NCBI GenBank assembly: GCA_902363805.1
Contig: CABJBF010000002.1
Span: forward strand, 186,001-250,000
Direction of reading: 5' to 3'
DNA length: 64,000 bases
From: Eubacteriaceae bacterium
GTDB lineage: Bacteria; Bacillota; Clostridia; Lachnospirales; Lachnospiraceae
Part shown: one piece after another, positions 16,882 to 64,000 of the stretch
How the letters are laid out: each line of letters begins with the position of its first letter
Position numbering within the stretch: position 1 is the stretch's first letter
Program-made: the position numbers and the translations under genes
Notes under the pieces: model-generated
Database searches by the model: none
What the model saw: the letters and a program-made list of their open reading frames with translations, nothing else
What the model was told of the DNA's origin: nothing

Positions 16882-16911
16882 TTATGTATTCGCGTTTGAA
16901 TAGGTATAGAA

Positions 16912-17001
16912 GGAAACGAAATGAATGAAGTTCATTTTCAATAAATGTTTCCGACGACTAGCCGCTGACCCAAGGGAGGGGCAATACATACTAATAGGAG
17001 G
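16912..17001 (+). ncRNA. Structured leader RNA of secG (copy A of a repeated family)
   Basis: P1: GGAAAC (16912-16917) with GTTTCC (16947-16952). P2 inside it: AAATGAA (16919-16925) with TTCATTT (16931-16937). P3: starts GCC at 16961 and ends GGGGC at 16982, with tandem G-A pairs in the middle. Then CAATACATA and the Shine-Dalgarno AGGAGG (16996-17001). The same plan occurs before the amidase gene at 58592 and fprA, and its 5' half at the window end. I do not recognise a known riboswitch. Confidence 0.7.
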
Positions 17002-17007
17002 TTCGAA

Positions 17008-17256
17008 ATGATTACATTATTAAGAGTATTATCAGTGATATACATTATCATCTGTGTAGTTATAACAGTAGTAATACTACTTCAGGAAGGAAAGCAGGCT
17101 GGACTTACAGGAGCAATCAGTGGTGCAGCAGAATCATACTGGGGAAAGAATAAAGGACGTTCAATGGAAGGAAAATTAGAAAAGATTACAAAGGTTATGA
17201 TTGTTTTATTCTTTGTACTTTCAATTGTTCTTAATATGAAATTCTTAAATTTTTAG
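17008..17256 (+). CDS. secG: Protein-export membrane protein SecG
   Basis: Small accessory subunit of the SecYEG translocon, 82 residues, with two membrane helices (about residues 3-23 and 62-80) joined by the typical Gly/Ala-rich cytoplasmic loop LLQEGKQAGLTGAISGAAESYWGKNKGRS. Such length and loop are diagnostic. It is preceded by the structured leader RNA and AGGAGG, and followed by a terminator and then rnr and smpB, the usual Firmicute order. Confidence 0.95.
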   Translation: MITLLRVLSVIYIIICVVITVVILLQEGKQAGLTGAISGAAESYWGKNKGRSMEGKLEKITKVMIVLFFVLSIVLNMKFLNF

Positions 17257-29311: not shown

Positions 29312-30475
29312 TTATATGAGTTCGTTAGCTAAAGCTTCGAGAGAAGCGATGTCTGTATCTTTTAAAGTTGATTTGATTGTTACCATATTTTCACAATAGG
29401 TTAAATCTTTCATTCCGTCTAGAATAGATTTCATAGACTTTCCAGCCATTGGAGCCCATGAACCGTTTTCAATGATTCCAATTTTACGCTTTTGATAATT
29501 CTTGTGAGCAAGTCTGTTAAGAAAATCTTCCATAGGTGGGAATACACCACCATCATATGTAGCAGCAGCTAAAACCAACTTATCATATCGAAAAGCATCT
29601 TCAATTGCTTCAGCCATATCATCTCTTGCTAAGTCAGTAAATGCAACTTTTTTGCAACCCTTTTCTTTTAAAATATCTGCGAGTTTTTCAGCAACCATTT
29701 TTGTATTACCATGAATTGATGCACATGCGATAAGAACACCTTCATCTTCAGGTTCATAACTGCTCCATGTGAGATATTTTCCAATATAGTAATCTAAATT
29801 CGCATTAAGTATTGGACCATGCAATGGGCAAATGGTTTTAATGTCAAGAGGAGAAGCTTTTTTTAGTAATGTCTGAACGGGTGCACCGTATTTGCCGACA
29901 ATATTAAAATAGTATCTTCTTGCTTCACAAGCCCAGTCTTCATCAGCAGATAAAGCACCAAATTTGCCGAATCCATCAGCAGAGAAAAGAATCTTTTCGC
30001 TTACTTCGTATTCAACCATAACCTCAGGCCAGTGAACCATTGGAGCCATAATAAATTTTAATTTATGAGAACCTAAATCAAGTTCATCTCCGTCTTTAAC
30101 AACTAAACAACGGTCAGAGAGATTTTCAATGTCAAAAAACTGAGGCAACATAGCAAATGCTTTAGCACTAAGAACTAATTTGACATTAGGATATTTGTCT
30201 ATAAGATTTTTTATATTAGAAGAATGGTCGGGTTCTAAATGTGAAATAATAAGATAATCGACGTTTCTTCCATCTAATTGAGAGTTAAGATTAGAAAACC
30301 ATTCATCAGTTTTTCTCGCATCGACAGTGTCCATAACAGCAGTTTTTTCATCAAGAATTAAATAAGAATTGTAAGAAACACCGTTAGGTACAATGTATTG
30401 ACTTTCAAATAAATCAATATCAATATCATCAACTCCGATATATTTTATTGAATCTGAAATATAAGTGTTGTTCAT
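29312..30475 (-). CDS. fprA: FprA-type flavodiiron protein (A-type flavoprotein)
   Basis: 388 residues. N-terminal metallo-beta-lactamase-like diiron domain with SHLEPDHSS (His79, Glu81, Asp83, His84), HWPEVM, FSADGFGKFG and CPLHGPIL as further iron ligands, then a flavodoxin domain starting near residue 250 (VLIACASIHGNTKMVAEKLA, FMN phosphate loop). Such proteins reduce O2 or NO in anaerobes, accepting electrons from rubredoxin or F420-like carriers. The ATG at 30475 follows AGGAGG; the open frame upstream is leader, not protein. The leader carries copy D of the repeated RNA. No rubredoxin gene is next to it. Confidence 0.94.
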   Translation of the reverse strand: MNNTYISDSIKYIGVDDIDIDLFESQYIVPNGVSYNSYLILDEKTAVMDTVDARKTDEWFSNLNSQLDGRNVDYLIISHLEPDHSSNIKNLIDKYPNVKLVLSAKAFAMLPQFFDIENLSDRCLVVKDGDELDLGSHKLKFIMAPMVHWPEVMVEYEVSEKILFSADGFGKFGALSADEDWACEARRYYFNIVGKYGAPVQTLLKKASPLDIKTICPLHGPILNANLDYYIGKYLTWSSYEPEDEGVLIACASIHGNTKMVAEKLADILKEKGCKKVAFTDLARDDMAEAIEDAFRYDKLVLAAATYDGGVFPPMEDFLNRLAHKNYQKRKIGIIENGSWAPMAGKSMKSILDGMKDLTYCENMVTIKSTLKDTDIASLEALANELI

Positions 30476-30483
30476 TATAAATT

Positions 30484-30569
30484 CCTCCTGTATTGTATTG
30501 CTCCGTTTTTTTACGGTGGCTGTTAGTAGGAAACATTGGTAAAATATGAATTTTATAAATATTGTTTCC
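30484..30569 (-). ncRNA. Structured leader RNA of fprA (copy D)
   Basis: Read on the minus strand: P1 GGAAAC (30569-30564) with GTTTCC (30534-30529), enclosing an A/T-rich hairpin; then AACAGCC; P3 with CCGT/ACGG closed by outer GC/GC (30520-30500); then CAATACA and AGGAGG (30489-30484) before the ATG at 30475. The plan is the same as copy A before secG, with a different helix sequence in P3. Confidence 0.65.
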
Positions 30570-30628
30570 AAATATAAATATAGACATATTATAACACTTA
30601 TAATATAGAATGAGAATACAAACACGCC

Positions 30629-43566: not shown

Positions 43567-43631
43567 ATGTTAGAGCATAGGCAATAAACTAAAAAATCTT
43601 TCGAGTGCGTAGAAATATTGGAGGTATACAA

Positions 43632-45731
43632 ATGAAACTAGAAAAAATGATTATAAAAAATTACAGGCAATTCGAGCATGCTGAACTTGAATTTGATAAT
43701 GATGTAACTATTGTGGCGGGTGCTAATAATAGTGGAAAAACATCATTGATTACATTGATAAAAAATGTGCTTTCCAGTGAAAAAACAATATATAAAGAGA
43801 CAGATATTCCAGCAAAAAATATAAAAAAATGGATTGATAAAGTATATCCTTTGTTTGAAAAATTTTTTTGTGATGAGAAAAATGTAGAAGAGATAGAAAC
43901 AGATTTACTTGATAAAATATTACCTGAATCTGAAGAAGAGGAAAAGTTAGTATTGGAAAACACGGAAATATATATTCAGGTGGACTATGATATAAATACA
44001 GATGACATTAAGCTGTTTGCAGATTATATTATGGATTTAGATGAAAATGAGCATTCGTTCTATTTTATTTATTGTTATGAAATAAGCAGGAACATATTCG
44101 GAAAGAATATTGCGGAAAATTTTGAAAAAATAAAAAAGCGTTTTAAGGAATTGACAGATCCAAATATTGATTTAAAAAAACGTTACTTGAAAGAATTATT
44201 GGTAAAGCTATATATAAACTCTATTAAGCCTACTTGTTATTTTTGCGATAGCTCATATGCCAATAAGTGTAAAATGGATGACGCAAAGGAATTAAAGAAT
44301 TTATTTAATATTAAATCTATTATGGCTAGCAGACCATTAGATGATGAAGACTATGATCACTCACATATGCTAAGTAAACAAATGATTAAGATGGTCAAAA
44401 TGGATGATAAATGGAATGATTTGATAGGAAATTTGCCAGATGAATTACTCCAGCCAATACAGGAGAAAGAAATACAGGAACGAGTGAGGGAAACTTCGTT
44501 AAACTCTTTACAAGATACTATTACAGCATTGGAACAAACAAATGGGGGACAGACAGGAGAACTGATGCTTGATATGAATGTTTCAGAGGAGGATATAAGT
44601 GATTTATTACAACGTATTACGAAAACAACTTATAATGTTGACGGTTATTTTTTAGGGGAAGCTTCTCAGGGATTGGGATATAGTAATATGATTTATATGC
44701 ATCTCCAATTACAAGAATACGAAAAAAGTATGGATCCTCTGAAAGTAAACATATTTTTTATTGAAGAACCAGAATCTCACATGCATCCTCAAATGCAACA
44801 AGTATTTATAAAATACCTATTAGAGTATTATCAAAAAAAGATATTGCAAGGAGTTATAACAACTCATTCTAATGAAATGGTAAGAGTAGCTGGAATATCC
44901 CATTTGAGAGTAATACGAAAAATTGGAACGTTTACAAGTAATTTATACAATCCAGCGCTTTTGGTTGAAACATTAAAACAGTCAGACGATGCAGAAGATA
45001 AAGAACTTGCAAACTTTTTTGACTGGTTCTTTGAAATTGGATATTCGGAAATTGTATTTGCAGATAAGGCAATTCTGTATGAAGGAGACACGGAAAGATT
45101 ATTAATAAAAAAATTAATGACACTGCCAAAGTATAAAAAATTAAGTCAACAATACATTGCCTATATTCAGGTGGGAGGTGCGTATGCATACAATTATCGT
45201 AAGTTAATTAATTTGTTGAATATAAAAACGCTTATTATAACCGATTTAGACTATAATAAAAAGTTAATAAATCCAGATGAAATCAAAAAATCAGATATTA
45301 CTAATTCCACAATAAAGAATTTTTATCAAGAGTTTAATTCGGACGATCCAAATGTTGAAAAACTATATAAATGGTATGAGAAAAAGCAGAATATTCTAGA
45401 TGATGGATTAATATATGTTGCATATCAAGCTGCTATTGATGGATATTCCAGAACCCTTGAAGAAGCCATGTTGGGAAAGTTCTTTGATTTTGATGTTTCA
45501 ATGAAATTGAGACGAAGTGAATGGGGAAAAAAGAAAAAGGAATCAAAATTAAAATATTCTGTTCCTAATAATTTGAATGGCGAAAAAGATTCAGAATTTT
45601 CATTACGAAATATATTGAATTCAACATCGGGAAATAAAACAGATTTTATGTATTCAGTAATATTAAATGGTTTCGTTGAAAAAATGGAACCTAATTATAT
45701 AAGTGAGGGATTGAAATGGCTGATGGAATAA
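43632..45731 (+). CDS. OLD-family ATPase-TOPRIM nuclease (GajA-like)
   Basis: 699 residues. AAA/ABC-type ATPase: NYRQFEHAELEFDNDVTIVAGANNSGKTS (Walker A at 30-38), signature-like GEASQGLGYSNM, Walker B and D-loop FFIEEPESHMHPQMQ near 376, and TTHSNEM. Then the TOPRIM domain: ILYEGDTERLLIKKLM (Glu at about 483) and TLIITDLDYNKK (Asp pair at about 537). This is the two-domain plan of OLD nucleases. The next gene is a UvrD-like helicase overlapping by 16 bases, as in Gabija GajA-GajB, so a DNA-degrading anti-phage role is likely. Longer than classical GajA (about 580). ATG at 43632 after GGAGG. Confidence 0.88.
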   Translation: MKLEKMIIKNYRQFEHAELEFDNDVTIVAGANNSGKTSLITLIKNVLSSEKTIYKETDIPAKNIKKWIDKVYPLFEKFFCDEKNVEEIETDLLDKILPESEEEEKLVLENTEIYIQVDYDINTDDIKLFADYIMDLDENEHSFYFIYCYEISRNIFGKNIAENFEKIKKRFKELTDPNIDLKKRYLKELLVKLYINSIKPTCYFCDSSYANKCKMDDAKELKNLFNIKSIMASRPLDDEDYDHSHMLSKQMIKMVKMDDKWNDLIGNLPDELLQPIQEKEIQERVRETSLNSLQDTITALEQTNGGQTGELMLDMNVSEEDISDLLQRITKTTYNVDGYFLGEASQGLGYSNMIYMHLQLQEYEKSMDPLKVNIFFIEEPESHMHPQMQQVFIKYLLEYYQKKILQGVITTHSNEMVRVAGISHLRVIRKIGTFTSNLYNPALLVETLKQSDDAEDKELANFFDWFFEIGYSEIVFADKAILYEGDTERLLIKKLMTLPKYKKLSQQYIAYIQVGGAYAYNYRKLINLLNIKTLIITDLDYNKKLINPDEIKKSDITNSTIKNFYQEFNSDDPNVEKLYKWYEKKQNILDDGLIYVAYQAAIDGYSRTLEEAMLGKFFDFDVSMKLRRSEWGKKKKESKLKYSVPNNLNGEKDSEFSLRNILNSTSGNKTDFMYSVILNGFVEKMEPNYISEGLKWLME

Positions 45732-47662
45732 AGAATAATATTTTTTTAGTAAATGCTCCGGCTGGTAGCGGAAAGACCACAACAATAAGAAGAATGGTGG
45801 AAAGACATTTACGAGAAAATCCAAATGATAATATTTTATGTGTGACATATACCAACCGAGCAGCAGAAGAATTGGGGAAGGATATAGATAGCAAGAATGT
45901 TTTTTTTGGCACAATACATTCATTTATTAATTATTTTGTAAGTAGTTTCTTTTCTCATAAGGAGGTTATTGAACTTTATTGGGAAATTTATAAAAATGAA
46001 ATTCAAGAAAGAATTGAAAATATAGAGAGAAAAGAAAATATACAAGAAGGTAATCAGAGATATATAGAAAAATATGGGAAACTTGATGCTGAGACTGTGT
46101 ATAGAAATATTCAAGAAATCTCTTATACTGAGGCTCCCTATAATTCATTATATAGAGGGGCTTTATCTCATGATGATTTAATAACATTTACCAGAGCAGT
46201 TGTTGAAAAATTTCCTATCGTAAAAAGAAAAATAAGAGATAAATATCAACTTGTTTTTATTGACGAATATCAAGATACATCAGCAGATGTTTTGCATATT
46301 TTCTACGAAGCTATGAAAGGTGGAAAGGGAAAACTATATTTGCTTGGCGACAAAATGCAACAGATATATAAGACATATGATGGAAGTTTTGAACAAGAAT
46401 TTTTGATCTTAAATCGGGAGATGAATTTGCAAACAAATTATAGAACAACACCATATATAGTATCCATCTTAAATTATATTTATAATGACGAATCATATGA
46501 GCAAATTCCTTATGGAAAGAACAAAGATGAGAATATGAGTTTTTTACCAAAGGTTATTATTTCGTCTTCGCCAGAAGAAATATGTATGAAGATAAAGCAA
46601 GAATATCCAAAAGCATTAGTCTTGTATTTGCTTAATAGGGAACGGTTTTACAGTATTGGTGCAGGAAAGCTATATGAAGCAGTTCAAAGTATGGAGAAGT
46701 ATGGTTTTGGTAGAAAATATGGAGCAGTAGATATATTATCAAATTATGATGAGGAAAATCCAGATAATCTTTTTTCTTTGCTGTTCTTATGTGAGCGAAT
46801 AGATGTGGCTTATAGATGCGGTCTATATGGAAATGTCATAAGACTCATTAAGAATAATAAAAAGATTTTAAACGTCTCAAAATACACAGTAAAACAACAT
46901 GGTGATAAAAAGAAAGTAAAAGAATTATTGGAAAATGTAATGATGCAATATGAAGATGGAGAAAAGAGCATTGCCGAATTTCTAATAGATATCAAAGAAA
47001 TGGATTTTGTTGACGATGAATACTTAGATGAAATTATTGGAGAAGAAGACTATTCTGATGTAATAGGAGTATCAATGGAAGAATTTCATAATTTAGTGAA
47101 ATATCTTGAAGAACCTCATATATCTACACAGCATGGGGTAAAAGGAGAGAGTCATGATACGGTTATATTTCTGGCAGCAAATAGTAGCCGTAATCCCGTT
47201 GTAAATATGACTAAGTTTTTTGAACTATGGAGTTCAACAGAAGTTAATTTGTCCGAATTTGAAAAGTTTTATTATGAGTATAAAAATTTAATACAAGAAA
47301 TAAGTGAAGTGGTTGGAATGAAATGTACAGATATGAAAAGCAATGAATATAATATTTATATGAACGATATATACGCAAAGTTAAAACAATTTGAAGATAA
47401 GTATTCTGATAATGGATATTTTAATGTCTTATTACAACCTAATTTTACAACATATTTTAGTAAAAAAGGTGTGACTAAAGCAAGGGAATGCCTTAGGGAA
47501 AATCTAGTATATGGTCCATTAAGTGCGTATAGATTGTTTTATGTAGGATGTTCTAGAGCAAGGAAAAATTTATGTGTCATTATTAATAGGAAGGATGTAG
47601 TTGGTTTTGAAAGAAGACTTAGAGCTAAATTTGAAGAATGTGGCTTTGAGGTAACTATGTAG
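45716..47662 (+). CDS. UvrD/PcrA-like superfamily 1 helicase (GajB-like)
   Basis: 648 residues. Motif I VNAPAGSGKTTTIRRM, motif Ia CVTYTNRAAEEL, motif II VFIDEYQDTSADV near 180, motif III GDKMQQIYKTYDG, motif IV LQTNYRTTPYI, motif V THGVKGESHDTVIF (here STQHGVKGE), and motif VI YVGCSRARKNL near 608. Complete SF1A set. The start overlaps the end of the OLD gene, showing translational coupling. GajB proteins are near 500 residues, so this is a large form. Together they are best read as a Gabija-type defence pair. Confidence 0.88.
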   Translation: MADGIKNNIFLVNAPAGSGKTTTIRRMVERHLRENPNDNILCVTYTNRAAEELGKDIDSKNVFFGTIHSFINYFVSSFFSHKEVIELYWEIYKNEIQERIENIERKENIQEGNQRYIEKYGKLDAETVYRNIQEISYTEAPYNSLYRGALSHDDLITFTRAVVEKFPIVKRKIRDKYQLVFIDEYQDTSADVLHIFYEAMKGGKGKLYLLGDKMQQIYKTYDGSFEQEFLILNREMNLQTNYRTTPYIVSILNYIYNDESYEQIPYGKNKDENMSFLPKVIISSSPEEICMKIKQEYPKALVLYLLNRERFYSIGAGKLYEAVQSMEKYGFGRKYGAVDILSNYDEENPDNLFSLLFLCERIDVAYRCGLYGNVIRLIKNNKKILNVSKYTVKQHGDKKKVKELLENVMMQYEDGEKSIAEFLIDIKEMDFVDDEYLDEIIGEEDYSDVIGVSMEEFHNLVKYLEEPHISTQHGVKGESHDTVIFLAANSSRNPVVNMTKFFELWSSTEVNLSEFEKFYYEYKNLIQEISEVVGMKCTDMKSNEYNIYMNDIYAKLKQFEDKYSDNGYFNVLLQPNFTTYFSKKGVTKARECLRENLVYGPLSAYRLFYVGCSRARKNLCVIINRKDVVGFERRLRAKFEECGFEVTM

Positions 47663-48091: not shown

Positions 48092-49042
48092 TTGAAAACA
48101 AGAGCAGATCTGCTAATAGACGGAAAATATAAAAGAATTACTATCTGGGATGCTTTAGATATGAAACAAAATCGTCCAGTACTTTGGGAAAAATATAAAG
48201 ATAAAATATTTAGTATAAGTAAGAAATCCGAAAACAAGGTAAGGTTGATTTTTCAAACAGGAAAGCATGGGATAGTTGAGAATAGTTACTTTCGATATTA
48301 TAATGCGGATTTTGAACATAGAGGAGAGGGAAGTGAAGAGTCCTATAGACATGAATTTTTTAAAGAATGTATTTCTAGAATCAAGCATCTTGAAATTAGA
48401 TGGAAAGGTGAAGCATTGACAATATATCCTGACGAAATACTGCAAGAGGAAACTGTCATTATGGATAATGGAAGTAGGCGTATTGTAGATTTACTTGTAC
48501 ATTTTAAACACGCAGAACCATCCATTTATGTACAAAAATGGGAAGGGCAGCTAGCGATTGAAATTAATGATACTCATCCAGTAGATAATAAAAAGATAAA
48601 TCAAATGAAACAGAAGGGACTTGCATGTTTTGAATTTACTGTCAATAAGTGGCGGATTAGAGAAAACTTTAGTGATGCTGAAGATGAAGAAAAACAGATT
48701 ATTGATATAAAAAATAAATTAGAAGGTGACAATGCGGGATATATCTATGGTGAACTATTGGTAGATCCTATTTCCGGAAAATATTTTAGAACTAAGTTGT
48801 ATGAAGAAGAAAAGAAAGAAAAGGAACAAACGATAACAGAACTGCATCATGTTAAGAAATTGTATGAGCTAGTTATCGACGAAAATAAAGAACTTAAAGA
48901 ACAGATAAGACTGCTTAATAAAGATATTAATTTGTATAAGGGGGATATCCTAAATCTTGATACAAAATTAAAAAATGTTGAACAAGAAAATACAAAAATC
49001 AAATCAAGTTTTTGGTATAAGATATTCGGTAAAAAGAAATAG
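48092..49042 (+). CDS. CoiA-like PD-(D/E)xK nuclease-fold protein with C-terminal coiled coil
   Basis: 316 residues, TTG start after AAAGGAGATGAC. The middle shows SEESYRHEFFKECISRI, then RRIVDLLVHF (Asp133) and QLAIEINDTHPVDNKKINQM (Glu157), which match the D...ExN/K pattern of competence CoiA-like restriction-fold nucleases. An N-terminal beta domain comes first, and residues 240-310 form a Lys/Glu coiled coil (KEQIRLLNKDINLYKGDIL) before a basic end. It follows the Gabija-like pair on the same strand and may be part of the same defence unit. Function is inferred from fold only. Confidence 0.6.
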   Translation: MKTRADLLIDGKYKRITIWDALDMKQNRPVLWEKYKDKIFSISKKSENKVRLIFQTGKHGIVENSYFRYYNADFEHRGEGSEESYRHEFFKECISRIKHLEIRWKGEALTIYPDEILQEETVIMDNGSRRIVDLLVHFKHAEPSIYVQKWEGQLAIEINDTHPVDNKKINQMKQKGLACFEFTVNKWRIRENFSDAEDEEKQIIDIKNKLEGDNAGYIYGELLVDPISGKYFRTKLYEEEKKEKEQTITELHHVKKLYELVIDENKELKEQIRLLNKDINLYKGDILNLDTKLKNVEQENTKIKSSFWYKIFGKKK

Positions 49043-49057
49043 GCTGATTAAAAGTAG

Positions 49058-49277
49058 TAATAAAGGGCGACAATTAATTTTCTTTAAATTTTTTACAGTT
49101 CCATTTACAAATCCTACACCACATTCTATAATATTCTCAGGTGAACAATCAAACGAATCACACTGATACACATTTGATACACTTTCGTCAAAGAAAAAAG
49201 ATTAATACAGAATACTTTGTAAAATAAGTGGATTAAAGAATATAAAACAGAAACAAAAATGTTACTGCTTCTTTCCG
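49058..49277. other. Spacer without assigned gene
   Basis: Low-complexity A/T sequence. On the minus strand an open frame reads SNVYQCDSFDCSPENIIECG and onward through about 49190-49058 with ordinary amino-acid content but no start; it could be a gene remnant. Confidence 0.3.
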
Positions 49278-49343
49278 ATAGGACCGTGAAGGTGGTAGAA
49301 CAGTAGGTTCAGGTAAAGTAGCAACTATCATCGAGTAGTAAAT
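49278..49343 (+). repeat. 3' end of tuf (EF-Tu), direct repeat copy 1
   Basis: Encodes REGGRTVGSGKVATIIE and a TAG stop, the exact end of EF-Tu. Upstream of CCGTGAA (49284) similarity to tuf stops at once. Positions 49284-49316 are identical (33 bases) to 55065-55097. No other part of tuf is present in the window. Confidence 0.85.
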
Positions 49344-49359
49344 ATTATCTAAAAACTTT

Positions 49360-49397
49360 GGCTCTGCCCTTTATTTATAAGGGGTTGAGCTTCTTTA
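49360..49397 (+). terminator. Terminator-like hairpin after the tuf fragment
   Basis: GCTC..CCCTTTA pairs with TAAGGGG..GAGC, then TTCTTT. It may be the original tuf terminator carried along. Confidence 0.6.
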
Positions 49398-49552
49398 GAT
49401 TTTAGAGGAAAATTTCCGTGCACTTATTTTGCACTTAATAATCCATTCAGAAGTTGCAGTGCACTTGACAAAGGACATTGTATCAGGCTGTCTTTGATAT
49501 TTTTCTCTGTTCCTTGTCGTGTGCTGTGGTTATTGACTTCGCAATTATATTC

Positions 49553-49825
49553 ATGGACAAAAAAGTGAAAAAAATATTGTGCAATGATATTGCTGTGATG
49601 TTTGAAATAGATAGTGAGTATCGACAAATGTTTGAAAAGGAAAATAATCTGATAGTATTTGACAGCGAAGGGATGTTAACAGAAGGAGCATATGTTGCTT
49701 ATATTTCATTAATGATAGTACAGACGGAACATGCTTATTGCGATATATTTGTCGGAAATAATTATCCGATTGTGTTTGAATGGGATACGAAGGCAATAGA
49801 CTGGTTTTTACACTTATATAAATAA
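49553..49825 (+). CDS. Unknown 90-residue protein
   Basis: Frame MDKKVKKILCNDIAVMFEID then EYRQMFEKENNLIVFDSEGM, AYVAYISLMIVQTEHAYCDI and a C-terminal YPIVFEWDTKAIDWFLHLYK. Normal composition with alpha/beta character, no membrane helix. The frame is open upstream to 49478, but that part looks non-coding, and no good ribosome site is present at either start. May be a small gene or the tail of a lost one. Not recognised. Confidence 0.4.
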   Translation: MDKKVKKILCNDIAVMFEIDSEYRQMFEKENNLIVFDSEGMLTEGAYVAYISLMIVQTEHAYCDIFVGNNYPIVFEWDTKAIDWFLHLYK

Positions 49826-49854
49826 AAAGAAAGTTTCCTGTGAAGAATGTCAAA

Positions 49855-50142
49855 GCGATTATGGCAGATAATATCAAAGGGGCAGATAAGGTGGGGATGA
49901 TAACAGCAACGAAATTGTTAAAGCAATTTGAAAGTCTGGAGAATGTTTTGGATAATGCGGAACAGATTGACAAATCGAGTATCTGAAAATCCGTTATAGA
50001 AAGTAGGGATAGGCTGAGGAAAAATTATCAGATAATTAAATTGACTGACAGAGCAGAGATTACATTTATGTTAGAGCAATTGAAGTATAGTGGAGAGAGA
50101 TTTAAAACGAATGATGTGTTATAAGGCATCAGGTTAAAGTAG
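49855..50142 (+). pseudogene. Second, more worn copy of the 5'-3' exonuclease C-terminus
   Basis: Reads MADNIKGADKVGMITATKLL, LENVLDNAEQIDKSSI, TGA at 49984, KSVIESRDRLRKNYQIIKLT, then a further stop near 50122 and ends at 50142. It corresponds residue by residue to 38570-38862 (DNIKGADKVGLKTAAKLL and so on) with many substitutions, so it is a diverged duplicate, not a recent copy. Confidence 0.8.
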
Positions 50143-50277
50143 AGGCAAACATAATTGTGCTTCAAGCTTATAATTGTAATTAAAAATCAAAGACGGTTGT
50201 ATGTAAGGAAGAAACATAATTAAGCTCAATTTAGTGTTGGATGATTCGGTTTAAAAGAAAGGAACAGAATAGAACTA

Positions 50278-50679
50278 GTGAAAGGTTATAATCTAATTGC
50301 AGTATTTAACAAAACAGAAGATAAATTACTAATGTGTAGAAGAAAGAAAAATCCGTATAGGAACTTAGTGAATCTTGTGGGTGGGAAAATTGAGAAAAAC
50401 GAAAATGGAATGCAGGCAGCATATAGAGAACTTGAAGAAGAAACATCAATAACCAGTGATGATATTAAACTTACACATCTGATGGATTTTACATATTATA
50501 GAGAAGATTGTTTCATAGAGGTTTATTTTGGAAAGCTGAATAAAGAAGTAGAAGTTATTGGCGACGAAAATGAATTGTTTTGGTCAGATTTAGATAAGGA
50601 TTTTTCAGATGAATCAAAGTATGCAGGAAATGGTAATATTGACCATATTTTGAAAGTGGTAAAAATTACTGAAAGATAA
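50278..50679 (+). CDS. Nudix hydrolase
   Basis: 133 residues. Nudix box GGKIEKNENGMQAAYRELEEETSI fits GX5EX7REUXEEXGU apart from the last Gly (Ser-Ile here), with a preceding LLMCRRKKNPYRNLVNLVGG typical of 8-oxo-dGTP or pyrophosphate-sugar hydrolases. GTG start; the nearest ribosome-like site (AAAGGAAC) is about 14 bases away. The 3' end overlaps the minus-strand open frame of the transposase remnant. Substrate unknown. Confidence 0.82.
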   Translation: MKGYNLIAVFNKTEDKLLMCRRKKNPYRNLVNLVGGKIEKNENGMQAAYRELEEETSITSDDIKLTHLMDFTYYREDCFIEVYFGKLNKEVEVIGDENELFWSDLDKDFSDESKYAGNGNIDHILKVVKITER

Positions 50680-50784
50680 AATCAAGTAGCTTGTTTTGAT
50701 ACTGGAATGATATTTAGAGCAACTCATGGTTGCAAAAATTCCAATCAAACTTGGTAGACGAAAATGGATTGATTTATTACAATT

Positions 50785-51180
50785 AGGAAAAACATCTGGA
50801 GAAAAAATGTATTTAGCCTCAAGGATAAACATAACTGCTGAAGAAGAAATATGAATGTTCTCATATTTTCCTAATAACTCAGTAAAATATTCAAAATTGG
50901 CACCATGGTATTTTGTGAGGTACAAATCAACAACAAGATTGCGTGTTTTGGTTGGAATGGTGTTAGAAGGCTTTCTGCCTCTGTTACCATGAATAAAGTA
51001 CGATTTGCCATGTTCCCTGTAGCCTTTAAGTAAGCGATTGACATGCCTCACAGTACAGCCAAGAGTAATGGTCACTCTTTGTTTGTTTGGGGCTGGGTGA
51101 TCAGCCAATGCCTTGATTATTTCATATTTCTTTTGCTCATCCATTGATAATGTTACCTTTCTGATAATAGTCACCTCCAT
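50785..51180 (-). pseudogene. Truncated ISNCY/IS1202-like transposase
   Basis: Minus-strand frame MEVTIIRKVTLSMDEQKKYE, helix-turn-helix LGCTVRHVNRLLKGYREHGK, SYFIHGNRGRKPSN and YLTKYHGANFEYFTELLGKYE match the N-terminal part of ISNCY (IS1202 group) transposases. After about residue 130 it runs into unrelated sequence, and the DDE catalytic part is missing. Flanking 51195-51290 has the words ACATTGGGACATT and TTAGGACATT, which look like the element's terminal repeats. Confidence 0.7.
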
Positions 51181-51288
51181 CTGTTGATGGAAGAATTATA
51201 CTACATTGGGACATTTCCCCTTGTGGTATATTAGGACATTATCAAAAATGGTTCATAAAAATGAGTTTAATATTACATTGGTACTTGA

Positions 51289-51726
51289 CCACTATACCAT
51301 CTTTATGATAAAACTGGCATACATAAGGCTATAGATGAAGCAATCAGAGTTACAAAGAAAGATGGAATTGTTATTATTGCATTTCTTTCTGTATATGCGA
51401 TTATTTTTGATGTTTATTTGAATGGAAATATAAGTGCTGGATTAGAAGAAAATTTTGAACAAGATTATAAGGTAAAGCATTTTGAAGGACAACTTTTTAC
51501 AGGGTATGATATTGCCGAATTTGAATAACTTTTTGAAGAAAAAAACGTGAAGCATATAATAACTGTTGCTACAGATAGTTTACTTGAACTAGCTGAAGGG
51601 AAAAATGATTTTAGTATGTTGGATGATGAGTTTGGACAATTTGTAAAATATCATATGGCTATTTGTGAGAAGAGAGAGTTGCTTGGAAGCTCAAGTTATT
51701 TGCTTTATGTTTGTAAGAAGATTTAA
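51289..51726 (+). pseudogene. Methyltransferase C-terminal part, cut by the IS and carrying TAA
   Basis: From 51289 the frame reads PLYHLYDKTGIHKAIDEAIR, VTKKDGIVIIAFLSVYAII, meets TAA at 51526 (after DIAEFE), and goes on LFEEKNVKHIITVATDSLLE to 51726. It is the second half of a class I SAM methyltransferase like that at 34733 (GPMYHLY there). The SAM-binding half is missing where the transposase remnant begins, so the IS probably removed it. Confidence 0.75.
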
Positions 51727-51758
51727 TGAAAAATATTAATTGATGAAGGAGTTTAGGT

Positions 51759-52277
51759 ATGAGACTTAAGTTAGTTAAAGCATCGAATGAATATTGTAAT
51801 CAAATTAAAGATATGTTGGACGAATGGAATGCCTTTGGCGAAAAAATTATACCGTCTGCAATTTGTTGTTTAGATTATAATGATTTTGAGTATTATTGTA
51901 ATAATCTTGAAGTAAAAGATACTAGTGATGGGTTAGTGCCTGATTCAACATTCTTTTGTCTAGATGAAGAACGAAATATTATTGTCGGAGCTATAAACAT
52001 AAGACATTATCTGAATGAGGCATTGCTGTTTAATGGTGGGCATATAGGTGACGGTGTACGACCATCAGAAAGACGAAAAGGTATAGCTACAAAGATGATT
52101 TCCTTGGCATTGGAGGAGTGTAGGAAACTTGGAATACCGAAAGTCCTTATGGTATGCGATAAAGACAATATAGGTTCAGCAAAAAGTATTATCAACAATG
52201 GTGGAGTTCTTGAGAATGAGATTATGTGTGATGGAGTCATAGTGCAAAGATATTGGATTGACTTTGATTATAATTAA
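51759..52277 (+). CDS. GNAT-family N-acetyltransferase
   Basis: 172 residues, intact. Core HIGDGVRPSERRKGIATKMISLALEECRKLG with the R-R-K-G-I-A loop, VLMVCDKDNIGSAKSIINNGG typical of the CoA-side helix, and an N-terminal VKASNEYCNQIKDMLDEW. Closely related to Firmicute acetyltransferases that take small-molecule amines. Ribosome site GAAGGAG before ATG. It is one of the few undamaged genes between the two tuf fragments. Confidence 0.88.
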   Translation: MRLKLVKASNEYCNQIKDMLDEWNAFGEKIIPSAICCLDYNDFEYYCNNLEVKDTSDGLVPDSTFFCLDEERNIIVGAINIRHYLNEALLFNGGHIGDGVRPSERRKGIATKMISLALEECRKLGIPKVLMVCDKDNIGSAKSIINNGGVLENEIMCDGVIVQRYWIDFDYN

Positions 52278-52312
52278 AGTTATGGTTGCATCCTATTTCG
52301 TGATAGAGAAAT

Positions 52313-52531
52313 ATGGTTCTTGCAGGTTTGGAAAATATTAAAGAAGGTAAGACAAAAGATTTTAATGAAGTGTTGCGACAGATTGGAGAAAAAATATAGA
52401 AATGTAGCAGTACAAAATCAGAATTAGGAGTATATAAAACATACTATAAAGAATATAAGATATTTTACACTATTGATGATAATGTGAAGGAAATTTTTAT
52501 AGTCAGAATATTACATATCCGAATTACATAG
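52313..52531 (+). pseudogene. Decayed type II toxin-antitoxin pair (RelB/RelE or ParD/ParE type)
   Basis: Two fragments in order: 52313-52399 reads MVLAGLENIKEGKTKDFNEV and ends as LRQIGEKI, similar to the end of RelB/ParD-like antitoxins; 52427-52531 reads VYKTYYKEYKIFYTIDDNVK and EIFIVRILHIRIT, the last strands of a RelE/ParE toxin. Starts and first halves are missing. Confidence 0.5.
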
Positions 52532-53172
52532 CAGGTGCATATTATGTAAGTAAGGTAATTAAAACAAAGGATTGTAATACTAATAATGTATCATATTTGA
52601 ATAATGGTATGAGTCAGGGACAACAGAATTATATGAAAAATGATATTATGAATATGAATTGGGCAAATATTCAATCAGAGTATAATTTTACATATAAAGA
52701 GACAGATACTAATAAACGTTTCTTATTATGGGGAGCATTAATGCACATAACTTCTGATACTTATGCACATAGGTCATGGACAAAAAATAGTTCAGGAAAT
52801 TGGGTACATATTGGAAGCTCAGATACAGATGATACAGGAAAAATTCCATTAAGATATGATGCAGCAAAGAAAGTTATAGAAAATATAATGAAAAAATGTA
52901 TTAAAAAAATGTATTAAAAAAATGTATTAAAAAAATGTATTAAAACATCAGCACCATATTCTTCAAATTACTTTATGAGTGAACAAATGGCACTTGATTC
53001 AAACTATTATAACGGAACATTTAAGTTGAAAAGATTGATGTTTTATGCAAGTGATAATAGTAAAAATGAACCTAACTATAATTCATATTATTTAAATTTA
53101 GGGTTAGGAACACAACCAGAAACAAGTGAAGAAATGGGAACGTTGATGGCATTAGGTGTCTATTTACATTGA
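52502..53172 (+). pseudogene. Zinc phospholipase C-like protein, split by a repeat expansion
   Basis: The frame opens upstream of the TTG at 52597 (about 52502: YIAGAYYVSKVIKTKD) and contains LLWGALMHITSDTYAHRSW, the HxxxDxxAH zinc motif of phospholipase C/nuclease-like proteins. It stops at a TAA inside a 13-bp tandem repeat (52891-52945). After the repeat the original frame resumes (TSAPYSSNYFMSEQMALDSN) to 53170. With one repeat unit the frame would be continuous. The N-terminus and any signal peptide are lost at the toxin junction. Confidence 0.6.
52891..52945. repeat. 13-bp tandem repeat, four copies, inside a coding frame
   Basis: TGTATT begins at 52897, 52910, 52923 and 52936, each followed by A7. 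Unit length 13 is not a multiple of three; the second unit brings TAA into frame. Confidence 0.92.
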
Positions 53173-53188
53173 TGGTGGAGGAAGGACT

Positions 53189-54049
53189 ATGAAAAGAACA
53201 ATTGCAATTGCAGCACTTTGTGCAGGTATAATGTTAACTACATTTCCATGCCAGGCAAAGGAAAGCGGAAATGTAAAAATTAACGCAAAGAATTTTCCAG
53301 ATACAATAGTAAGAGAATATGTGTCAGAAAAAATCGACAAAAATAATGACGGTTACCTTAGCAAAAAAGAAATATTAGCAGTGAAAACAATCATTATTGA
53401 TAAGAATAATTTGTATTGGGAGAATAAAGAGAAGCCAAAAGAAGATTATGAAATAATAGACTGCAAAGGCTTAGAAATTTTTACAAATGTTGAAAAAGTA
53501 AAACTTACAACATATTGTGATACTTATGTAAGTGAGTATGGCAACATAAAAAATATCAAAGTTTTAACAAAATTGACGAAGATAAAGAACTTGGAAATTA
53601 GTGGTGTTAATAACAGTAATTATGATTTCACAAAATTAAATAATTTAGAGAGGTTATGTATAAAAAGTACAAAACTTAAAAAACTGAATTTATCTAAGAA
53701 CGTCAAATTGAAAAATCTGAAGCTTGCATATAATCCTTTGTTGAAAAAAATTAATCTTACGAAAAACAAAAATTTAGAAAAGATTAATTTATACGGAAGC
53801 GGAGTTAAAAAAATTACACTGGGAAAAAATAACAAAATAAAAAATGCTAACCTAAATTGTACATTTATTAGCAATTATGAAAAATGTAATTTTAATCCAA
53901 AAACATTAAAAACTCTAAAAATATGCAATACACAGATTAAAAAAGTTAATTTGAAAAAGTACAAGAATCTAAAGAAATTGTCAGTTACAAAAGAGGTAAA
54001 AGTAATTGGCTATAAAGGTAAAAAAACAATTTACGATGAGACACTATAA
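53189..54049 (+). CDS. Secreted leucine-rich-repeat-like protein with EF-hand-like motif
   Basis: 286 residues. Signal peptide MKRTIAIAALCAGIMLTTFP (cut near CQAKES), then IDKNNDGYLSKKEI, an EF-hand/dockerin-like calcium loop, then about 7-8 Leu/Asn/Lys repeats (LKNLKLAYNPLLKKINLTKN and similar) that form a bacterial leucine-rich solenoid, and a basic end. Very high Lys and Asn. No sortase or membrane anchor. ATG at 53189 after GGAGGAAGG. Probably a surface-interacting or secreted protein; the partner is unknown. Terminator follows. Confidence 0.8.
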   Translation: MKRTIAIAALCAGIMLTTFPCQAKESGNVKINAKNFPDTIVREYVSEKIDKNNDGYLSKKEILAVKTIIIDKNNLYWENKEKPKEDYEIIDCKGLEIFTNVEKVKLTTYCDTYVSEYGNIKNIKVLTKLTKIKNLEISGVNNSNYDFTKLNNLERLCIKSTKLKKLNLSKNVKLKNLKLAYNPLLKKINLTKNKNLEKINLYGSGVKKITLGKNNKIKNANLNCTFISNYEKCNFNPKTLKTLKICNTQIKKVNLKKYKNLKKLSVTKEVKVIGYKGKKTIYDETL

Positions 54050-54054
54050 TTAAA

Positions 54055-54110
54055 AAAGGGAGCATACTACATTAGCGATTTACAAGCAGCTGTAGTATGC
54101 TCCCTTAAAT
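54055..54110. terminator. Bidirectional terminator
   Basis: GGGAGCATACTACA (54058-54071) pairs perfectly with TGTAGTATGCTCCC (54091-54104); A-run on the left, TTAAATTTATTT on the right. Serves the LRR gene and the convergent small membrane gene. Confidence 0.92.
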
Positions 54111-54326
54111 TTATTTATCTTCAATGTGCATTAGCCCATGTACAATCAATCCGATTCCCACAATTAACAGTAATATAAATAAATAGTGCAATAATATGGA
54201 GTTACCGGAAGAACTAACAACACTGTCGGCTAATAAAACGGCTTCACTTAAGTTATCAAGGGCAAGTCCTATGCAACCTGAAAGTAAACAGGTGCAACCT
54301 ATAATTATTATTGATAAGTATTTCAT
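54111..54326 (-). CDS. Small membrane protein, possible lipoprotein
   Basis: 71 residues: N-terminal hydrophobic segment ending in LSGC (lipobox-like), a short polar stretch, then a second membrane helix (LHYLFILLLIVGIGLIVHGL) and HIEDK. AAGGAG lies six bases before the ATG on the minus strand. Either a two-helix membrane protein or a tiny lipoprotein with one more anchor. Function unknown. Confidence 0.65.
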   Translation of the reverse strand: MKYLSIIIIGCTCLLSGCIGLALDNLSEAVLLADSVVSSSGNSILLHYLFILLLIVGIGLIVHGLMHIEDK

Positions 54327-54481
54327 TAAAAATCTCCTTCTAAAACAATAATTAAATACTATAGTTTCTTTAGTAAAAAGTCAACGCAAATATAAAATGC
54401 AAAAACCAAAATAATTTAAAAATTATATTTAAAATATGTTATTGTAAAAGTAAGAATAAAATTGTTGCGGAGTGAATGTAT

Positions 54482-54817
54482 ATGCAAGATATAAAAATAA
54501 AAAATTACAAAAGGCTTATTTTATCTGTTTTTATTGGAGCTAGTTTAATTTCGATTATGCAAGTGACAATATTACAGGTTTTATTAACGTGCTTTATTTG
54601 CTTTGTTGTATTCGATTTTTTGAAAAAAAGAAAGCAGAATGAATTAGGAAAATGTAATCATTTTGTTATTGAATGTGTTATTGTTACTTCTTTTGCATTA
54701 AGTGAAATATTGGGGAATTTTATTGGTATATATAATGTACATACGTGTAATTTCTTTGGGTTAGGTATCGCATTATTATGTGTAATATTGGAAGGAGTTT
54801 TCTTATTTAAGGAATAA
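54482..54817 (+). CDS. Small polytopic membrane protein
   Basis: 111 residues with about four membrane helices (starting YKRLILSVFIGASLISIMQV, LQVLLTCFICFVVFDFL, ECVIVTSFALSEILGNFIG, LGIALLCVILEGVFLF) and a basic inside loop KKRKQNE. ATG at 54482 is nine bases from GGAG; ATG at 54476 is too close. Not recognised. It may be an island gene or a normal chromosomal gene near the right edge. Confidence 0.6.
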   Translation: MQDIKIKNYKRLILSVFIGASLISIMQVTILQVLLTCFICFVVFDFLKKRKQNELGKCNHFVIECVIVTSFALSEILGNFIGIYNVHTCNFFGLGIALLCVILEGVFLFKE

Positions 54818-55064
54818 AGAGTGTAATTCGTTTAACGCCTTTTATGAAGCCAGCCTTTTTTGCATATGCTTGTTGATAGTAGAGCATAGTTATATCGTAC
54901 ATTTGGTATCCCAAGTTGACAATTGGAAATAAGTAGTAAGAAAGTGTCGTCAAACTGTCGTCATTTTCTCACGCAAGTAGAAATAATGACAACATAAACA
55001 GCAACAATACACAATGGAAACAATGAAAATAAAACAAGATATACCAAACAATGATGAAATAATT
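54818..55064. other. Spacer left of tuf fragment 2
   Basis: No supported gene. A minus-strand stretch (about 54910-54830) is open for about 35 codons (YDITMLYYQQAYAKKAGFIK) and could be the end of a recombinase-like or other gene; too short to name. AGTGTCGTC/ACTGTCGTC are short direct repeats at 54945-54963. Confidence 0.3.
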
Positions 55065-55122
55065 CCGTGAAGGTGGTAGAACAGTAGGTTCAGGTAAGGT
55101 TGCTACTATTGTTATGGAATAG
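55065..55122 (+). repeat. 3' end of tuf (EF-Tu), direct repeat copy 2
   Basis: Encodes REGGRTVGSGKVATIVME plus TAG. The first 33 bases equal those of copy 1 (49284-49316). As there, similarity to tuf begins sharply at CCGTGAA. It probably marks a recombination or attachment site 5.78 kb from copy 1. Confidence 0.85.
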
Positions 55123-55451: not shown

Positions 55452-55457
55452 TAAATT
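55429..55457 (+). promoter_or_regulatory. Possible promoter of the riboswitch-ATPase unit
   Basis: TTGACA (55429-55434), 17-base spacer, TAAATT (55452-55457). The -35 is perfect, the -10 weak. It lies within the end of the broken frame. Confidence 0.5.
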
Positions 55458-55464
55458 TTTTATA

Positions 55465-58479: not shown

Positions 58480-58492
58480 TTAAATCATGAAA

Positions 58493-58581
58493 GAAACAAA
58501 TGTAAATTAAGTTTACTTTCAAATGTTTCCCATGATTAGTCGCTGACCAAAGTGATGCGACAATACATATTATACAAGGAG
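58493..58581 (+). ncRNA. Structured leader RNA of the amidase gene (copy B)
   Basis: P1 GAAAC (58493-58497) with GTTTC (58525-58529); P2 GTAAA (58502-58506) with TTTAC (58512-58516); TTAGTC; P3 GTCGC (58539-58543) with GCGAC (58557-58561), loop with CTGACC as in copy A; then CAATACATA and AAGGAG (58576-58581). Compared with copy A, P3 pair C-G has become T-A, and P2 has wholly changed while staying paired. Confidence 0.7.
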
Positions 58582-58591
58582 AAAAAAGCCT

Positions 58592-60916
58592 ATGAGAAAA
58601 GAAATGTTAAAGAAAAGTATTGGAACAATTGTGATGACAATTGCTTTAGTAGGAACATCAATACCCGGCGTTACTGTTAGTCCTGTTAAAGTAAATGCAG
58701 ATGTTGCAACTACAGTAAGTGCATCATCAAATGAAGTAGGAAAACTTGAAAGTATTTTCACTACAATTGATTTAATGGATGCTTCCATTAGTGAATTGGA
58801 AACGGCAATGGAAAAAGGAGAACTTACTGCAGAGCAGTTAGTACAGATGTATATAGACAGAATAAATGCATACGATAAATCGCTTGATTTAAATTCTATT
58901 ATTACAATTAATTCAAAAGCTTTGGATGAAGCAAAAGAATTAGATAAGGAAAGAGCAGCAGGAAAAATAAAAGGAAAACTTCATGGTATTCCAATTATTG
59001 TAAAAGATAATTACGATGTTGAAGGTATGCCGACAAGTGCAGGATGTAAGGCATTGAAAGATTCAATTGCACCTGATGACTCTTATGCGGTAAAAAAATT
59101 AAAAGAAGAAGGCGCAATTATATTAGCAAAGGCAAATATGTCTGAGTTTGCATCAAGTGGTTCAAATTCCCGTTCAACATTAGGAGGAGCTGTTCATAAT
59201 GCATACGATACAGAAAGAACAGCAGCAGGTTCTTCAGGAGGTACAGCAGTTGCCATAACATCAAATTTTGCAACAGCAGGTTTAGGAACAGATACAGGTT
59301 CATCAATTAGACGTCCGTCATCATTCTCTAATTTGTATGGCTTAAGACCTTCAAAAGGATTAACATCAATTGATGGCGTTGTTCCGCTTAATGGAGATAG
59401 AGATGTAACAGGACCTATTTGTAGAAGTGCAGAAGATTTGGCAACAATTATGACAGCAATTGCGGGAACAGATGCTAATGACAGTTATACAGTTGATGCA
59501 AATGCAGATTCATTAAAACCTGCAAACGGATATGAATCAGGACTTAAAGCAGATGGCTTAAAAGGAAAGAAAATAGGTTATTTGTCAAATTCATTTGGAT
59601 ATTATGTGGCAAATGATGATTCTGATGCGGGTGAAAGAACTACAGAATTAGACAGTAAAATTAGTGACATGGTTGAGAAAGCAAAGGGAAATTTGGAAGC
59701 AGGAGGCGCTGAATTAGTAGATATTTCACAGTATATTCCTGAATCACTTATTACTTCTCTTAGACAGGCAGCACCTTATGCAAATGTATTTGAATGGGAT
59801 TTAGATACATACTTTGCATCGCTTGGACCTGCAGCACCTATTAAAACTGCATATGAATTAATCAATAATTATAAATATGGAGAAGATTATACTAATGTAA
59901 GTATTAGAAATCCAATTGAAGATTTTTCGACAATGACAAATCCAAGAACTACAGAAAACTGGCAGTCATGCTGGAATGGAATGGTTAATTTCAGAACAAC
60001 AATTTCTAATATTTTGAAAGAACATGATATTGATGCAGTTGCATATGTATCACAGACAGATGTGGCAGATATTGAAACAACTTCTAACAACAAAAATAAT
60101 GCAGCTTCATATATAAATTACTTTGGACCTGTAGCAGGATTACCTGATATGATGATTCCAATGGGATTTGCTAAAGCTGACCCTGATAATGGATATGAAA
60201 CAGAAATGCCACTTGGTATGTCATTATTTACAAGTTATGGAAATGAAGAAAAGCTTATTGAAATTGCATATTCTTATGAACAGACAGCAGGAGAGAACAT
60301 AAGAAAACAGCCATCTACAGTTCCTGCATTAGAGGATAAGAACGTTGATAAATTCTTAGATAAATTAATTGATAAAACTGATAGCATTGATTTTAGCGAG
60401 TACACAGTTTATCCAAATGGTAAGGTAAATGTATTGTTAAATAAATATGCAGAGGCTACAGAAGTTGACAGAAGCGATGTATATGAAACATATGAAGCTA
60501 CATATGATTTGGCAAAGGCTTACGATTCATTAATGAATAAATTACTTGCAAATAAAAAAGTAACAACACCTGCAAAAGACAAAACACCTACAGCAAATAC
60601 ATCTACTGTAACAACACCTACAACAGAAACTGTAAGTGCACCGGCAAAAGCAAAGATTTCAAAGATTACAAAAGCAAAGAAGTCTATGAAGATTGCCATT
60701 AGAAAACAGGCTGGTGTCAAAGGATATCAGATTAAATATTCAACATCAAAGAAATTTGTGGCTAAGAAAACAAAGACAGTAACTACATCAAAAGCTAAAG
60801 TGACAGTTAAGAAAATAAATGTTAAAAAGACATACTATGTTAAAGTAAGAGCTTATAAACTTATTGATGGCAAAGTAACATACGGTGCTTATTCAAAAGT
60901 AAAGAAAGTAAGTTAA
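58592..60916 (+). CDS. Secreted amidase-signature-family hydrolase with Fn3-like tail
   Basis: 774 residues. Signal peptide (MRKEMLKKSIGTIVMTIALV.., cut near VNADVA). Amidase signature domain: KGKLHGIPIIVKDNYD (Lys138), RTAAGSSGGTAVAI (Ser214/215) and TDTGSSIRRPS (nucleophile Ser238) give a Ser-cisSer-Lys triad; the usual GGSIR reads GSSIR. After about residue 650 a Thr/Pro linker (PAKDKTPTANTSTVTTPTT) leads to a Lys-rich Fn3-like domain (GYQIKYSTSKKF...YYVKVRAYKLIDGKVTYGAYSKVKKV). Such tails may bind cell wall or substrate. Extracellular amide substrate unknown. Leader RNA copy B and AAGGAG precede it. Confidence 0.9.
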   Translation: MRKEMLKKSIGTIVMTIALVGTSIPGVTVSPVKVNADVATTVSASSNEVGKLESIFTTIDLMDASISELETAMEKGELTAEQLVQMYIDRINAYDKSLDLNSIITINSKALDEAKELDKERAAGKIKGKLHGIPIIVKDNYDVEGMPTSAGCKALKDSIAPDDSYAVKKLKEEGAIILAKANMSEFASSGSNSRSTLGGAVHNAYDTERTAAGSSGGTAVAITSNFATAGLGTDTGSSIRRPSSFSNLYGLRPSKGLTSIDGVVPLNGDRDVTGPICRSAEDLATIMTAIAGTDANDSYTVDANADSLKPANGYESGLKADGLKGKKIGYLSNSFGYYVANDDSDAGERTTELDSKISDMVEKAKGNLEAGGAELVDISQYIPESLITSLRQAAPYANVFEWDLDTYFASLGPAAPIKTAYELINNYKYGEDYTNVSIRNPIEDFSTMTNPRTTENWQSCWNGMVNFRTTISNILKEHDIDAVAYVSQTDVADIETTSNNKNNAASYINYFGPVAGLPDMMIPMGFAKADPDNGYETEMPLGMSLFTSYGNEEKLIEIAYSYEQTAGENIRKQPSTVPALEDKNVDKFLDKLIDKTDSIDFSEYTVYPNGKVNVLLNKYAEATEVDRSDVYETYEATYDLAKAYDSLMNKLLANKKVTTPAKDKTPTANTSTVTTPTTETVSAPAKAKISKITKAKKSMKIAIRKQAGVKGYQIKYSTSKKFVAKKTKTVTTSKAKVTVKKINVKKTYYVKVRAYKLIDGKVTYGAYSKVKKVS

Positions 60917-63939: not shown

Positions 63940-63972
63940 TTATAAGTAAAATAAATATAGTTAGTAATTTTA

Positions 63973-64000
63973 GGAGAAAACAAAATGAACGAAGTTCATT
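63973..64000 (+). ncRNA. Probable 5' half of another leader RNA (copy C, cut by window end)
   Basis: GGAGAAAAC then AATGAAC (63984-63990), GAA loop, GTTCATT (63994-64000). It matches P1-5' and P2 of copy A at 17 of 18 positions in the P2 region. The rest is outside the window. Confidence 0.5.

Follow-up and report, generated by a model that had tools for sequence, protein, structure and literature searches.

GA-cis elements of the Lachnospirales are probably small mobile cassettes aimed at Shine-Dalgarno sequences

GA-cis, a catalogued RNA family (Rfam RF02987), is present at some genes and absent from their homologues in related genomes, lies at Shine-Dalgarno (SD) sequences, is dispersed as identical copies and in tandem arrays, has covarying stems and, in a subset of copies, is accompanied by locus-specific repeats. 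We conclude that GA-cis is probably a small mobile palindromic DNA cassette, similar in kind to REP and BOX elements, that is aimed at SD sequences; this looks like a new behaviour of a known family. The DNA under study (the window) is a stretch of 64,000 nucleotides from contig CABJBF010000002.1 of a Eubacteriaceae bacterium, in which a sequence-only reading had noted a recurring leader RNA before unrelated genes and explained it by a global signal or a shared RNA-binding protein. Presence and absence at orthologous genes, identical copies, tandem arrays and the repeats of the subset point to a mobile cassette rather than to a global signal, and have displaced that earlier proposal as the best explanation.

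Results

Window copies and their family

The copies in the window, A to D, are listed here with their parts and host genes. R1 is a covariance model that we built from 54 copies of other genomes and none of the window (53 of 59 thinned copies and one from genome G425; there were 101 distinct copies before thinning).

16905..16992, plus strand: copy A, GA-cis, before secG; RF02987 71.2 bits; R1 49.4 bits, E 1.9e-11
16912-16917 / 16947-16952, plus strand: P1 of copy A
16961-16982, plus strand: P3 of copy A
16982-16988, plus strand: CAATACA of copy A
16996..17001, plus strand: AGGAGG, SD of secG from the sequence, directly 3' of copy A
17008..17256, plus strand: secG, host of copy A; PF03840 E 4.3e-23
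29312..30475, minus strand: flavodiiron (FprA-like) gene, host of copy C; PF19583 E 2.7e-20 and Flavodoxin_5
30490..30576, minus strand: copy C, divergent and A/T-rich, probable GA-cis; R1 16.3 bits, E 0.027 (filters off)
58485..58571, plus strand: copy B, GA-cis; RF02987 39.1 bits; R1 30.6 bits, E 3.1e-6
58493-58497 / 58525-58529, plus strand: P1 of copy B
58539-58541 / 58559-58561, plus strand: outer P3 of copy B
58592..60916, plus strand: amidase gene, host of copy B; PF01425 E 9.5e-78
63969..64000, plus strand: copy D, 5' half ending at the window end; RF02987 positions 1-32, 21.7 bits, E 4.5, below cut-off

Copies A and B exceed the gathering score of RF02987 (34.7 bits), and C and D fall below it; the Rfam type of the family is 'Gene; sRNA'. 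An Rfam search had been set beforehand as the test of novelty, and since A and B match RF02987 the claim of an undescribed class of RNA falls. The copies themselves fared better. Those reported at 16912-17001 and 58493-58581 on the plus strand are borne out both by the Rfam model, above its gathering score, and by R1, which ranked A, B and C as the three best matches in the window (the fourth had an E-value of 0.62). For the copy reported at 30569-30484 on the minus strand, the Rfam model gave no match up to E 5; as R1 placed it third with an E-value of 0.027, copy C is a probable, not a certain, GA-cis element. The 5' half reported at 63973-64000 on the plus strand does match the first 32 positions of the family, yet it stays below the cut-off, and its host gene lies beyond the window. 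It can also be seen that the P1, P2 and P3 layout agrees with the earlier description, P1 being apparently longer than stated, and that the CAATACA motif, which had been called strict, is present in A, B and C, whereas relatives show variants of it.

GA-cis reportedly originates from a 2017 paper on 224 candidate structured RNAs, and we take it to have been regarded as cis-regulatory. In the portions of the literature searched, the name was met in this sense only as a table row of the Rfam 15 paper (PMC11701678), no description of mobility or SD targeting of GA-cis was met, and a search on repeats at SD sequences led nowhere.

Conserved structure

The covariation that had been proposed from the window copies was recovered in the 54 copies of relatives, where double changes occur at 14 of 17 pairs compared with a mean of 10.0 in shuffled alignments (reached by none of 500). 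Paired cells amounted to 91.6% against 73.2% after shuffling, and none of the 500 shuffles reached any of five measures, although these figures flatter the structure, as it was drawn from the alignment on which it is scored. When the partners were displaced by 1-3 columns, the paired cells fell to 38-51%. By eye, P1 extends further, AGGAGG standing opposite CCGAC via a tandem G-A motif, and in copies C46 and C68 of genome G009 the corresponding strands are GGTCGGAAC with GTTCCGACC, so that ordinary pairs take the place of the G-A motif. An exact AGGAG starts 35 of the 54 model copies, and 40 of the 54 have GACG in the linker (CGTC on the other strand). At an oxidoreductase-like locus the insertion is common to the two species G028 and G039, and there P1 is altered on both sides and still paired; these compensatory changes indicate that, once inserted, the element had its structure maintained, either through selection or through hairpin-templated repair.

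A coding function was considered and rejected. Although there is often an ATG after the first AGGAGG, and some copies are open throughout, different copies read the conserved core in different frames, and in A and B of the window the frame ends early (by eye).

Many GA-cis copies have a further palindrome, GTCATAAGG ... CCTTATGAC or a variant of it, inside or beside P3 (loci L181, L183, L185, L206, L267, L269 and L271). In other copies P3 is replaced by a similar palindrome – small repeats within small repeats.

Position at SD sequences of unrelated genes

The existence of further copies had been made a test of the RNA, and 132 were collected with their flanks from 11 other genomes. An SD-like stretch of at least 4 nt, together with an ORF of 40 codons or more, followed within 70 nt at 99 of the 132 (a raw count, without a chance control). 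By eye, the other 33 comprise eight first copies of tandem arrays, six members of a dispersed family in G008, and 19 with a more distant start, a short ORF, a weak SD or no visible gene.

All ten hosts tested with Pfam could be named (adk, rplN, rpsH, gyrB, metK, NifU-like, ATP synthase epsilon, secG, amidase and flavodiiron), and by eye, from their first residues, we further named trmL, flgL, trpC, thrS, malQ, DHFR, a moeB-like and an esterase-like gene. The ten have no common pathway, in keeping with the earlier statement that the element directly precedes the ribosome site of unrelated genes; they are not tied by one ligand or pathway as riboswitch hosts are. At the rplN locus the TAG stop of the preceding ORF (S17 by eye) overlaps the first AGGAG of the element.

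Some loci are unusual. At L235, L258 and L248 the SD overlaps the upstream gene and insertion seems, by eye, to alter the last codons or stop of that gene. The dispersed GA-cis-like repeat of G008 (L282, L283, L284, L285 and L286) has conserved flanks, CAGGAAGTACC before and GAGGCTCTCAGAAA after, and no following ORF by the criterion used here (SD-like stretch and ORF). Two genomes of the window's genus (loci L443 and L452) have a GA-cis 3' half before an rplQ-like gene, again by eye; at the rplQ-like locus of G382 another palindrome stands in place of the 5' half.

Distribution across genomes

A noisy pattern scan of genome contigs gave at least 118 stretches, of which 17 Bacillota-like ones were taken further; RF02987 was found above cut-off in 11 of these 17 genomes among the matches listed, and the richest had up to 29 matches at E 0.1. 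Within the genus of G006, 24 of 37 genomes had a match at E 0.001, with 1 to 22 copies each, and 13 had none among the candidates scored (G006 itself has 18 copies and its relative G049 has five). On RNase R, the nearest neighbours of the window among 392 genomes drawn from the order were G382 (72%) and G402 (71%). Twenty genomes were searched after this comparison, and three had a match at E 0.01, one of them above cut-off; R1 matched in six of 23 genomes of the G382 genus. An Rfam search of 20 loci around RNase R in relatives recovered no GA-cis. In a phylum-wide draw with stricter filters, three of 398 genomes had a match, the query genome being one of the three. Phage carriage was considered and rejected: a strict pattern, which would miss divergent copies, had two matches in viral contigs, both of them by eye GC-rich and without the rest of the element.

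Empty sites at homologous genes

For several hosts the flanks were joined at the SD and run as empty-site queries against the 37 genomes of the G006 genus. Matches across the junction were found in close pairs for flgL (95%), a membrane protein gene (91%), the esterase-like gene (89%), the moeB-like gene (88%), malQ (87%), trpC (85%) and thrS (84%). It can be seen in the aligned junctions that the upstream flank continues to AGGAGG or a variant of it, followed by the cassette and then by the gene's own SD; at trpC, for example, the filled site reads ACAGACT[AGGAGGAACC...TATACG]AGGAGGAAGCATG and the empty site ACAGACTAAGGAGGAAGCATG. The junction at the membrane protein gene (G028:C57:34565) is not clean, since about 9 nt of the relative's sequence are absent too.

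We then examined 79 homologous gene-start loci, of which 54 were from the G006 genus, selected because their matches covered the region around the junction or gene start, and 25 were from the G382 genus. By R1, 77 of the 79 were empty and both filled loci were already known (some loci may be paralogues, and the default filters miss divergence like that of copy C). All 19 secG starts found in the 23 genomes of the G382 genus were empty, by R1 and by eye. G049, which is 85-95% identical to G006 over three loci compared, is empty at flgL and at two of the loci where G006 carries the identical copies described below.

Dispersal, tandem copies and direct repeats

Five copies in G006 are identical over 82 nt (AGGAGG to ACATATT) and precede five unrelated host genes with unlike upstream flanks. 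Adjacent copies in direct tandem were seen, for example, in G021, G026, G006, G010 and G001, and G425 has two full copies, then a partial third, then a native-looking SD. Copies also resemble each other more within a genome than between genomes: for the hairpin half, likeness was 0.757 within and 0.684 between (reached by none of 1000 label shuffles), and for the rest of the element 0.702 and 0.651, both in 103 copies with kinship ignored. The 103-copy set, and the 98-copy set used for the duplex test below, exclude copies of unusual length and tandem neighbours.

A direct repeat is shared between the 5' arm of the element and the downstream flank. In a strict set of 116 copies (16 of the 132 dropped: tandem copies and the non-genic G008 family) the longest shared stretches summed to 843, compared with 714 (sd 15) and none of 1000 within-genome shuffles as high; in a looser set of 117 (15 dropped, two tandem copies kept) the sum was 857 against 731 (sd 18; 0 of 151). 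Taken by genome in the looser set, the effect was strong in G010, G006 and G004 (0 of 200 shuffles each) and G003 (1), weaker in G028 (8), G039 (10) and G001 (15), and not seen in G009 (96 of 200); G008 and G012, with few copies, gave 25 and 31. A subset drives the effect, in that 20 of the 116 copies share at least 10 nt and 96 share less. The repeat at flgL is 19 nt long and identical to the sequence at the empty site of G049, and in G003:C292, G003:C233 and G006:C198 the repeat lies upstream of the real ribosome binding site (RBS). In several copies (flgL, G004:C93, G003:C292 and the partial third copy in G425) it runs from the SD into P2, up to or into the loop. Window copies A and C have 8-nt repeats (CGAAATGA and ATTTATAA, respectively), noted by eye without a chance comparison. 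Terminal inverted repeats are missing from the ends of GA-cis, and the direct repeat varies in length. At trpC, malQ and the esterase-like gene the left arm belongs to the element and the right side appears native, from which the minimal duplication would be AGGAG(G). Judged from sequence alone, the long repeats may be duplicated targets, targets matched by a guide or relics of tandem copies.

Discussion

Mobile cassette, regulatory leader or loss

We propose that GA-cis cassettes, mostly 80-95 nt long and found in the Lachnospirales and near kin, consist of AGGAGG or a variant, the P1/P2 hairpin, a linker (often CGACGA), the P3 hairpin and an A/T-rich tail beside another SD. Such a cassette would enter at an SD in the sense direction, the upstream region then running into the first AGGAGG, and the gene would retain a complete SD and spacer, so that insertion before essential genes is tolerated. 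Most differences between genomes would have arisen by transposition rather than loss. The enzyme might be a single-strand (Y1/HUH, RAYT-like) transposase that reads the hairpins, whose 3' arm may contribute to target choice through pairing with the target. Any influence on how the host gene is translated, or on the stability of its mRNA, would be a side effect or later domestication, and GA-cis may also regulate its host gene. Points against the cassette are that an exact AGGAG opens no more than 35 of the 54 model copies, that some insertions are retained between species, that the ends lack inverted repeats and the direct repeat varies in length, that one junction is not clean, and that the search for a mobiliser described below yielded no more than a lead. 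We think it rather doubtful that GA-cis is the first mobile element to target the SD itself and that its 3' arm acts as a guide pairing with the target RBS, changes in the arm retargeting it to differently spelled sites.

The same elements could instead be true cis-regulatory leaders (riboswitches or protein targets) that switch translation as the 3' arm of P1 alternates between two partners, the 5' arm and the host RBS, and that spread by ordinary duplication. Their position at the RBS and strong covariation would be expected of such leaders, and the predicted duplex of the 3' arm with its own RBS (-12.0 kcal/mol) is stronger than that with shuffled RBSs of the same genome (-10.7 kcal/mol; 0 of 300 shuffles, 98 copies), a result repeated in the strict set (-11.9 against -10.6; 0 of 300, 95 copies). 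However, when the copies with long repeats were removed, 31 of 300 shuffles were as good (72 copies), or 13 of 300 in the strict set (71 copies), and because the difference that remains is weak, a general SD-sequestering switch is not well supported. The repeat lying upstream of the real RBS in the three copies named above, the tested hosts without a common pathway and the absence of the element from most homologous starts examined all argue in the same direction, and we regard a regulatory leader as unlikely. A history of loss, in which old cis elements had many ancestral copies that were removed from relatives by recombination between the flanking SD repeats, seems to us very improbable. The flanking AGGAGG repeats would permit precise loss, recombination at the flgL repeat would produce the very empty site of G049, and at any one locus a gain looks the same as a loss through AGGAGG repeats; nevertheless, the five identical G006 copies at unrelated loci, and the emptiness of most relatives examined at most loci, are easier to explain as recent gain, and the phylum-wide draw, with its stricter filters and three positive genomes including the query, also argues against loss.

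If GA-cis is a mobile cassette, a catalogued leader RNA is in fact a mobile element, which would change how orphan leader RNAs with scattered hosts are read; conservation and position before genes are usually read as regulation. A cassette that targets the RBS and leaves an RBS behind would have a non-lethal entry to essential operons and would rewire 5' leaders genome-wide. If, in addition, a hairpin arm guides insertion, target choice would be open to direct study.

A candidate mobiliser

Of the 37 genomes of the G006 genus, 15 have long Y1 frames (218-305 aa), and at least three GA-cis copies were found in ten of these 15 as against two of the 22 genomes without a long Y1 (Fisher p 4e-4, Mann-Whitney p 0.001, with kinship ignored and several Y1 types mixed). 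Two of the Y1 proteins were scanned; both are Y1_Tnp, with a helix-turn-helix above the Pfam cut-off in one and just below it in the other. The link of long Y1 to copy number is a lead, and it may be, though we hold this tentatively, that a long Y1 transposase, RAYT-like in its length, specifically drives the cassette. Y1 chemistry fits hairpins and a short target without inverted ends, and the co-occurrence would be expected if the two were connected, as would contig G004:C242, the only one with both among the matches listed for the 37 genomes, on which the Y1 ORF is 744 nt from the copy with two ORFs between. Against this, the statistics ignore kinship and mix Y1 types, and no long Y1 was found in copy-rich G006, which has short Y1 frames only, or in G049. 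In addition, loose patterns run over 20 Y1 loci revealed no recognisable GA-cis beside them, the lone loose P3 match, in L397, being without other parts of the element. G004:C242 aside, a Y1 transposase adjoining GA-cis was not found among those loci or the matches listed for the 37 genomes.

Comparison with known systems

IS200/IS605-type elements and REP/RAYT pairs have hairpins, no inverted ends and a short target motif on one side, and GA-cis is like them in all three respects; by contrast with them, no GA-cis-ended element with a transposase was found at the 20 Y1 loci. Of the Y1 enzyme that would recognise the end hairpins of an IS200/IS605-derived element, what we observed is the co-occurrence with GA-cis. 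GTAG REPs with a RAYT do not correspond, as the foot of GA-cis is AGGAGG-like, no GA-cis was recognised beside the 20 Y1 loci and the one contig with both has them 744 nt apart. A DDE-type MITE was likewise set aside, the ends of GA-cis being direct AGGAGG-like repeats, not inverted ones, with a repeat of variable length. RF02987 itself shares with our copies the P1-P2-P3 plan and the G-A motifs.

CGTC-tagged REPs, as described in PMC3733652, have stems of 8-9 bp, mostly 4-5 nt loops and a CCA-type tail, occur mostly as inverted pairs and come from five other phyla. According to the same paper they are dispersed small palindromes, patchy and mostly intergenic, with no dedicated transposase found, in all of which GA-cis is alike; it also carries their CGTC motif, on the other strand of the linker in 40 of the 54 model copies. 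GA-cis differs in having two hairpins, direct tandem copies and a location at the SD. We did not assign it to these REPs, because its P1/P2 hairpin is bulged, the tail on that strand is TCCT and the adjacent copies seen are direct, not inverted (HH), pairs. BOX, RUP and SPRITE of pneumococcus are similar in being small interspersed repeats that form RNA stem-loops, are thought to be parasitic and may affect neighbouring genes, but their modular build differs, GA-cis is without terminal inverted repeats, and SD targeting was not met for them in the parts of PMC3049150 seen.

Other features of the window

Long ORFs are scarce at 49042-55615 of the window, and a number of the short ORFs there begin with GTG or TTG. 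On the minus strand of this region an ORF of 188 aa (50614-51180) had no match in Pfam or PADLOC. At 43605-47662, on the plus strand, there is a complete-looking Gabija pair, with scores of 876 bits for GajA and 853 bits for GajB (PADLOC models).
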